Shown here: one piece after another, positions 4,852 to 6,829 of the stretch
Layout: each line of letters opens with the position of its first letter
Numbering within the stretch: the stretch's first letter is position 1
DNA from: a virus
Strand: one strand, 5' to 3'
IMG/VR virus record: IMGVR_UViG_3300010396_000022
Coordinates: 1 to 44,484 of that record
Length of the DNA: 44,484 nt
Made by a program: the position numbers and the translations under genes
The notes under the pieces: model-generated
Seen by the model: the letters and a program-made list of their open reading frames with translations, nothing else
What the model was told of the DNA's origin: nothing
The model's database searches: none

Positions 4852-5070
4852 ATGACAGTATGGAAGACGATAGACACATACCCGTTTGACGGGACTCGCG
4901 TACTCGTTTGGAGCCGACTGGAGGGCGAGCGCGATGACGGCCCAACGCCGCTGCCAGCTTACTGCGATGCTGAAGACGGCATATGGTGGCTAGCGCAAGG
5001 ATTGGAGGAGGTGGATAGCCCAGACTGGTGGATGCCCTTACCCCCACCACCGGACAACACTGATGTCTAA
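4852..5070 (+). CDS. DUF551-like small protein
   Basis: About 72 residues. W-K-T-I-D-T-Y-P-x-D-G-T-R-V-L-V-W near the start and W-W-M-P-L-P-P-P-P at the end match the layout of DUF551-type phage proteins (an opening Trp motif, then a closing W-M-P-L-P). ATG 4852 is taken as start. ATG 4801 is also possible because it keeps an MWIS motif, but it would overlap the previous gene. The 3' end overlaps the Xis-like gene by 8 nt. Confidence 0.7.
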   Translation: MTVWKTIDTYPFDGTRVLVWSRLEGERDDGPTPLPAYCDAEDGIWWLAQGLEEVDSPDWWMPLPPPPDNTDV

Positions 5071-5398
5071 AGCCGCTCGCTTCTCGCAGGCTGACCGTCC
5101 CTATTCGCCGGAAACTTTAGCCGATCGCTGGTCTTGCTCATCGGAGACCGTTCGGCAAATGTGTCGGCGCGGGGATCTGAGCTACTTCCGGCTCGGCAAG
5201 CTGATTCGCATTCCCGCCAACGAGGTTGAGCGTGTCGAATGTCTGAATGGCGTCTCGTCAAGCACAGAGGACAATGGAGCCTCGCCTACGGAAATCCCCG
5301 CAAGCGAATTGCGACTGGCACGAATGATCGGGGACGGGCCGAAGCTATCGCTGGTGAAATATGGCGACGGCTCAACCGACCAGCGCAGGAACGGGTAA
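5063..5398 (+). CDS. Helix-turn-helix protein, likely excisionase (Xis-like)
   Basis: A 111-residue protein. Residues about 12-58 form a MerR/AlpA-type winged HTH (YSPETLADRWSCSSETVRQM ... LSYFRLGKLIRIP), the usual fold of phage excisionases that bend attP and set integrase direction. The 3' 160 nt are read in a second frame as the integrase N-terminus, so residues about 60-111 are constrained by the overlap and look low-complexity. It starts 8 nt before the end of the DUF551-like gene. Identity as excisionase follows from fold and position and is not proven. Confidence 0.82.
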   Translation: MSKAARFSQADRPYSPETLADRWSCSSETVRQMCRRGDLSYFRLGKLIRIPANEVERVECLNGVSSSTEDNGASPTEIPASELRLARMIGDGPKLSLVKYGDGSTDQRRNG

Positions 5399-6201
5399 CA
5401 GACCTGTGGGAACCCTACAAACAGGATCGCATAGCGAACGGCGGCTCGGAAGCGCGGCTAAAGTCGCTCTGGAAAACCCTGGAACCGGCGTTCGGATACA
5501 AGCTCGGAAAAGCCATAACGAAGCAGGATTGCCGGGACTATGCCGCCAAGCGGAAGAGGGAAGGGAAGTCGCCTTCCACAATCAAGACCGAGCTGGAAGC
5601 GCTAAGGGCCTGCCTCAGGTGGCACTATGGCAAGGATGCTCCGATTATCACGGCCCCCGCTCCTTCCAAGCCGAGAGAGCGGTTCCTGACGAAGGAGGAA
5701 GCCGACAAGCTTCTAGCGAGCATAAAGACGCCGCATGTTCGGCTGTTCGTAACGCTGGCGCTGGCGACGGGCGCGAGGATGAGCGCTATTCTCGACTTGA
5801 CGTGGGACCGCGTGGATTTCGAGGTTGGCACGATCGACTTCCGGCCAGCGGGCCGAAACGTAACGAACAAACGCCGGGTGATAGTGCCAATGAACCGCAG
5901 GGCTCGGGAGGCACTGGAAGAGGCGCGGAAGGGCGCTCTAACCGATCATGTGATCGAATATGGAGAGAAGCCGGTAAAGAGCATCAAACGAGCCATCGCG
6001 GCGGCGGCGAGGCGCTCCGGCGTTCAATGCTCGCCGCATGTGTTTCGGCATACAGCTGGAGTGTGGATGGCTCAGGCCGACGTGCCGATGCAGAAGATCG
6101 CGCAGTTCCTGGGACACACATCAACGAGGATCACGGAGACCGTGTATGCCCGATATTCTCCCCGGTTCATGGCCGATGCAGCGAGCGCTTTGGACTGGTA
6201 G
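5239..6201 (+). CDS. int: Tyrosine integrase
   Basis: A 320-residue site-specific recombinase of the lambda Int/XerD family. Residues 1-50 look like a small arm-binding domain, about 52-135 the SAM-like core-binding domain, and about 148-315 the catalytic domain. Catalytic residues are visible: Arg180 (TGARMSAILDL), His267-x-x-Arg270 (PHVFRH), His293 (LGHTS) and nucleophile Tyr303 (TVYARYSP). It overlaps the Xis-like gene by 160 nt and ends 60 nt before the tRNA-derived attP, the normal arrangement for a tRNA-targeting integrase. It should integrate the circular genome into a host tRNA-Val gene. Confidence 0.97.
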   Translation: MSEWRLVKHRGQWSLAYGNPRKRIATGTNDRGRAEAIAGEIWRRLNRPAQERVTDLWEPYKQDRIANGGSEARLKSLWKTLEPAFGYKLGKAITKQDCRDYAAKRKREGKSPSTIKTELEALRACLRWHYGKDAPIITAPAPSKPRERFLTKEEADKLLASIKTPHVRLFVTLALATGARMSAILDLTWDRVDFEVGTIDFRPAGRNVTNKRRVIVPMNRRAREALEEARKGALTDHVIEYGEKPVKSIKRAIAAAARRSGVQCSPHVFRHTAGVWMAQADVPMQKIAQFLGHTSTRITETVYARYSPRFMADAASALDW

Positions 6202-6261
6202 CCGGTTCACTGGTTCCAGTAGAACCTCTCGGGCGAATCGGAAGAAATGGCTGGAAACTGC

Positions 6262-6305
6262 GGTGGGCGGTGACGGGCTCGAACCGCCGACCCTCTCGGT
6301 GTAAA
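6262..6305 (-). other. attP: attP core: 3' 44 nt of a tRNA-Val(UAC) gene
   Basis: Read on the minus strand this gives the anticodon loop TTTACAC (anticodon UAC), the 3' anticodon strand CGAGA, variable loop GGGTC, T-arm GGCGG-TTCGAGC-CCGTC, acceptor strand ACCGCCC, discriminator A and CC. Just upstream (6306 onward) the 5' anticodon strand no longer pairs, so identity with a tRNA stops there. It lies directly downstream of the integrase gene. Integration would restore a complete tRNA at the host junction. Confidence 0.9.
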
Positions 6306-6358
6306 AGCGAGCCACCCCCGCCAAACCGCCATTTTCTCGACAATTTCAAAGAGCGTCA

Positions 6359-6380
6359 TGCTAAGCTGTCTCTCTTAGCA
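6359..6380 (+). promoter_or_regulatory. Inverted repeat upstream of the SLOG-like gene
   Basis: TGCTAAG (6359-6365) and CTTAGCA (6374-6380) form a perfect 7-bp inverted repeat with an 8-nt spacer, 20 nt before the GTG at 6401. A weak -35-like TCGACA lies at 6337-6342, and the repeat would overlap the -10 area. It could be an operator for the unit downstream of attP or an integrase-associated arm site. Function is inference. Confidence 0.45.
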
Positions 6381-6400
6381 CAGGCGCGGGGTGGTACCAA

Positions 6401-6829
6401 GTGAACCAGGCGTACATCTCGGAAAATCCGGTGTTCTATGCGGTGACTGGCGGCAGGGATTATGCCAACTGGGCGCACGTCAAACGGGTGCTGGACGAAG
6501 AGCGCCCCGGTGTCGTTGTGCAGGGCGAATGTCCGTATGGTGGCGCTGACAAGCTGGCAAAGCGATGGTGCCGGGAGAACGGCGTTCCGTGCATCGGCAT
6601 CGAGGCACTGTGGGATTACTACGGAGGTCGCGCAGCGGGGCCAATCCGCAATGGTTGGATGCTCGATCTATTTCCGATCTACAAGCTGATCGCGTTTCCA
6701 GGAGGAAGGGGAACGAACAATGCCGTGTTACAGGCCGAGAAACGCGAGACACTTGTTCGTGACGAACGCGGCGGCAACGCCGATGCGCCCACTCCCAGTA
6801 ACCCCACAGGAGAAGATGTAGATGGCTGA
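6401..6829 (+). CDS. DUF2493 (YspA-like, SLOG superfamily) nucleotide-binding protein
   Basis: A 142-residue protein with GTG start. Residues about 14-20 give V-T-G-G-R-D-Y. Then come V-V-V-Q-G-E-C-x-x-G-G-A-D-K-L-A-K-R-W (about 38-57), R-N-G-W-M-L-D and F-P-G-G-R-G-T-N-N-A (about 98-108). These are the Rossmann-like GGRD, G-GAD and GG-GT elements of the SMF/YspA branch of the SLOG superfamily, which bind nucleotide-derived ligands. The last 25 residues are an unrelated polar tail. It is the first gene after attP, a usual place for accessory genes. Its role in phage biology is unknown. Confidence 0.88.
   Translation: MNQAYISENPVFYAVTGGRDYANWAHVKRVLDEERPGVVVQGECPYGGADKLAKRWCRENGVPCIGIEALWDYYGGRAAGPIRNGWMLDLFPIYKLIAFPGGRGTNNAVLQAEKRETLVRDERGGNADAPTPSNPTGEDVDG

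Follow-up and report, generated by a model that had tools for sequence, protein, structure and literature searches.

A probable attP site carrying the 3' half of tRNA-Val(UAC) beside a tyrosine integrase gene in a virus contig

Positions 6204-6424 of the window (the whole 44,484-base linear virus record IMGVR_UViG_3300010396_000022) almost certainly serve a temperate phage as attP: its tyrosine integrase would carry out exchange with the host tRNA-Val(UAC) gene at the anticodon loop and leave the tRNA restored. In the proposed mechanism, the integrase would bind core sites that surround the anticodon loop and the arm-type repeats that flank them, and strand exchange with the identical sequence of the host gene would be confined to some 7 bp (TTTACAC). 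Integration would join the host 5' half to the phage-borne 3' half, giving a working tRNA-Val gene at the integrase end, and would displace the host's native 3' half to the far prophage end. The arrangement is ordinary, even textbook, and is an addition to a known class. It assigns the virus contig a place of integration and a likely group of hosts, and supplies a tyrosine integrase/attP pair for sphingomonads.

The tRNA-Val half and the attP region

Read on the minus strand, positions 6262-6305 are TTTACACCGAGAGGGTCGGCGGTTCGAGCCCGTCACCGCCCACC, which occurs once in the record and starts 60 bases past the stop of the integrase reading frame. The segment reproduces tRNA-Val(UAC) positions 32-75 exactly over 44 nt, and whole tRNA-Val(UAC) genes of many bacteria have it as their 3' part (e.g. 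GGGCGGTTAGCTCAGTTGGTAGAGCATCTCG followed by the 44-mer); a match of this exactness and length rules out chance. The preliminary description had taken the 44 bases after the integrase gene for the 3' half of tRNA-Val(UAC) and proposed a search for bacterial genes with the exact 44-mer, and both the single copy in the record and the matching whole genes bear it out. It had also placed the end of the match inside the anticodon stem, which needs correction: identity begins at the stem/loop border, with position 32 (the first anticodon-loop base), and runs to the CC of the CCA end. Upstream of the 44-mer the phage has GCTCGCT where the host has CATCTCG, which sets the boundary of the tRNA match at that border. 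The half ends in CCG in the window and its six close relatives, against CCA in host genes. Coordinates are given in Table 1.

Table 1. Features of the integration module and attP of the window
Feature	Coordinates	Strand	Basis and remarks
HTH_17 protein, likely excisionase (recombination directionality factor), overlapping the integrase start	5063-5398	+	Pfam HTH_17; weak PHROG excisionase match (7.6e-5)
Tyrosine integrase, 320 aa	5239-6201	+	Pfam Phage_integrase (PF00589), 3.7e-24; PHROG integrase, 2.5e-51; relatives align from the same start
Integrase-proximal arm-type repeat (GGTTCACTGGTTCCAGTAGAACCTCTCGG)	6204-6232	+	Direct-repeat family with 6406-6422; counterparts in L002, L005, L006 and L007
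tRNA-Val(UAC) 3' half, tRNA-restoring part of attP	6262-6305	-	Exact match to whole tRNA-Val genes; ends CCG, without the final A of CCA
Putative core-type half site C' (CGAGAGG, 3' anticodon stem)	6292-6298	-	With 6306-6312, makes up an imperfect inverted repeat that encloses the overlap
Putative 7-bp overlap (crossover) region TTTACAC, the anticodon loop	6299-6305	-	Invariant in six attP relatives; cleavage points putative
Core-type half site C (GCTCGCT), phage-specific, replacing the 5' anticodon stem (host CATCTCG)	6306-6312	-	CTCGC kept in relatives; GCTCGCT also in URHD0057
Distal arm-type repeat (GGTACCAAGTGAACCAGGCGTACATCTCGGAA)	6393-6424	+	Direct-repeat family; conserved counterparts in relatives

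Both TTTACACCGAG and CTCGC are unchanged across six attP sequences. TTTACAC is enclosed by the half sites GCTCGC(G/T) and CGAGAGG, which are imperfect inverted repeats of each other. A directly repeated element (near GAACCGnnCGAACCTTTCGGA) lies about 85-105 bp from the core on each side; the arm repeats are significant against shuffled sequences in L002, L005, L006 and L007 and are weaker, but still recognisable, in the window. The window attP has the arm-core-arm layout familiar from lambda-type tyrosine integrases; arm-site binding, the exact cleavage points and the activity of the window phage are predictions.

The HTH_17 protein encoded ahead of the integrase is probably the excisionase, and a homologue (87% identical) adjoins the integrase gene in the prophage of Sphingomonas sp. 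URHD0057. Elsewhere the window encodes a head-to-tail connector, a terminase, a major head protein and an SLT-domain protein of 1523 aa (Pfam, PHROG). A DNA-similarity search of the phage collection returned just two short matches, both to unannotated records.

The phage might instead encode a complete tRNA of its own at 6262-6331 (tRNA-Stop, anticodon TTA), used for stop-codon reading or tRNA-dependent lysogeny. ARAGORN does call a 70-nt tRNA-Stop(tta) there and makes tRNA calls at this place in L003 and L007 as well, and shuffled 5' flanks joined to the tRNA half yielded a call in only 10 of 1000 trials. The program makes no call in L002, L005 or L006, however, and the 5' acceptor strand of the called tRNA is not conserved in the attP alignment; RNA folding of the segment favours a non-cloverleaf structure, Rfam gives no tRNA at the gathering score, the TTA reading requires a mismatched anticodon stem, and a spare tRNA is unnecessary where the attP restores that of the host. 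We consider this reading very improbable, and a phage-encoded tRNA was rejected for its unconserved 5' part despite the 1% shuffle rate.

Displaced tRNA halves at prophage ends look much like the half described here, so the window could be bacterial chromosome at the end of a prophage and the half a displaced host fragment. There is hardly any chance of this: phage genes flank the half on both sides, with structural genes beyond 6331, which makes this an uninterrupted attP; the flanking CTCGC and both arms match the attP of relatives; and the flank reads GCTCGCT, as on the phage side of the URHD0057 junction.

A natural lysogen in Sphingomonas sp. URHD0057

The decisive evidence comes from an integrated relative. 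Sphingomonas sp. URHD0057 carries an integrase (L113) 81% identical to that of the window, and beside its gene lies a whole tRNA-Val(UAC) gene (G001:C3:243226-243300), with a second half at 290613, 47,356 bp away (L197/L199). This lysogen bears out the attP and the insertion site predicted in the preliminary description, and the second partial copy that was to be sought is present where the prophage ends on the other side.

In the whole gene the half has the sequence ...GGGTCGCAGGTTCGAGTCCTGCATCGCCC; that of the displaced half is ...GGGTCGGCGGTTCGAGCCCGTCAGCGCCC. Of the two, the displaced half alone is fully paired with GGGCGCT, the acceptor strand of the host. Added to the host 5' half, it recreates the native GGGCGCT...AGCGCCC gene, which many genomes of the order carry, and the empty site is cleanly reconstructed. 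The displaced half is therefore the original one, and that in the restored gene is phage-borne. From the loop onward the two have TTTACACCGAGAGGGTCG (18 bp) in common and nothing more, which bounds the crossover to the anticodon loop or the 3' stem; with so short a shared stretch, exact-match att searches will miss real hosts.

The window aligns to the URHD0057 prophage over 5126-6305, a stretch that opens in the excisionase gene, takes in the integrase gene and closes with the tRNA half; window 6262-6345 matches the other junction (84 bp, 87%). Beyond the integration module (window 5063-6424 against L201-L203) the two phages are mostly unrelated, so the integrase gene, excisionase gene and attP move between phages as a module. 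No lysogen of the window phage itself was found.

The chimeric tRNA-Val(UAC) of URHD0057 differs in the T arm, and C6 and U67 are mismatched in its acceptor stem. A pattern search found no other tRNA-Val(UAC)-like match in this genome, so the sole detected tRNA-Val(UAC) is the phage-host chimera; the C6 mismatch was found in none of the other 149 of 150 sampled family genomes, URHD0057 alone matching. It is improbable, in our estimate, that phage tRNA-Val 3' halves evolve independently and that lysogeny gives the host a rewritten version of the sole tRNA-Val(UAC) detected in it. If this were true, lysogeny by the window phage would leave a tRNA gene ending in CCG rather than CCA, and the rewritten tRNA-Val(UAC) could change translation in lysogens.

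Related integrases, their target tRNAs and the host

Among the close relatives of the integrase, six have sequence beyond the integrase gene (L002, L003, L005, L006, L007 and L008; 76-83% identical); all have a tRNA-Val(UAC) half directly after it. The same half lies by the integrases of L102 (75%), L088 (70%), L086 (58%) and L085 (57%). An Altererythrobacter segetis element (integrase 59%) has a restored tRNA and a decayed second copy 7,260 bp apart. The half beside the L009 integrase (62% identical) reads as tRNA-Val(GAC), the L117 integrase gene (52%) adjoins tRNA-Ala(GGC), and in remoter relatives across Alphaproteobacteria the tRNA is Val, Thr, Ala or another. These L009 and L117 cases could suggest that the window integrase targets another tRNA and that its tRNA-Val(UAC) half is left over from a former host, but we give this almost no credence, as all integrases at least 70% identical with a known flank, and several at 57-59%, are at tRNA-Val(UAC).

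About a dozen more viral contigs end on the same tRNA-Val half, with integrases of only distant similarity (mostly 27-33% over the aligned parts). The presence of several distant integrase lineages (L082-L111) on this half marks tRNA-Val(UAC) as an integration hot spot. One contig (L082/L105, IMGVR_UViG_3300049170_000121) apparently contains the two junctions of a prophage whose integrase is only distantly related, and its restored tRNA ends in CCCACGG, without an encoded CCA. The phage tRNA-Val halves at L003:3130-3173 and L006:1753-1796 have a T arm that diverges in sequence (CCACAGGTTCGARTCCTGT) and keeps its stem intact, and no native source for them was found within 2 mismatches in 385 sampled alphaproteobacteria.

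In the order sample, tRNA-Val(UAC) has three common acceptor alleles (C6-G67, A6-U67 and G6-C67), all paired among the matches listed. The window half fits the G6 allele, and a host 5' half joined to it is called as tRNA-Val(tac) with all stems paired. The exact 44-mer occurs in five of 240 sampled alphaproteobacteria, four of which have other D-arm sequences, and its use as a sphingomonad marker was rejected on that account. The preliminary description had narrowed the host to bacteria with that tRNA; the tRNA identity stands, but the exact 44-mer does not fix the host, given how little the URHD0057 halves share and given its presence in alphaproteobacteria with tRNA 5' halves unlike those of sphingomonads. 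Since a host need not carry the full 44-mer, the lack of a shared one would not have refuted the attP reading. The host of the window phage is likely a sphingomonad, a prediction drawn from the relatives of the integrase and not from the 44-mer alone.

Comparison with known systems

Williams is said to have described, in 2002, an anticodon-loop class among the attP sites of tRNA-targeted tyrosine integrases, which is class A of the Islander database. Islander holds 2083 islands with anticodon-centred sites (PMC4383910). The window resembles class A in its 3' tRNA half by the integrase gene, a putative crossover at the anticodon loop, and one junction with a restored tRNA and one with a displaced 3' fragment, and differs in host group and isoacceptor only. 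The traits of the class seen in the window itself are the adjacent tyrosine integrase, the identity block from the loop to the 3' end and the flanking arm repeats; the restored tRNA and displaced fragment are seen in integrated relatives (URHD0057 and the A. segetis element).

Phages with tRNA-dependent lysogeny, such as Fionnbharth, likewise target the anticodon region of a host tRNA gene, where the integrase acts on a core of about 10 bp and a whole tRNA gene is brought in (PMC10865867). These phages do not rebuild the host tRNA, whereas the window half does (all stems paired, G6 allele), and they carry a whole tRNA, whereas the window phage has no credible one: a whole tRNA of the same isotype is absent, and only the unconserved tRNA-Stop call overlapping the attP is present.

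Other precedents are the mycobacteriophages Omega, whose common core in tRNA-Leu is 44 bp long, and Boilgate, whose 43-bp core has five differences from its tRNA-Lys target and whose half remakes a working tRNA (PMC10865867). Like the window phage, they carry a 3' tRNA half in attP; their integrases and hosts are other ones, and the window group has more divergent halves (L003, L006 and the URHD0057 prophage). Because such precedents exist, a phage half unlike the host copy is a twist on a known pattern and not a new kind, and URHD0057 provides a small natural experiment in which the phage half need not match that of the host beyond the anticodon arm.
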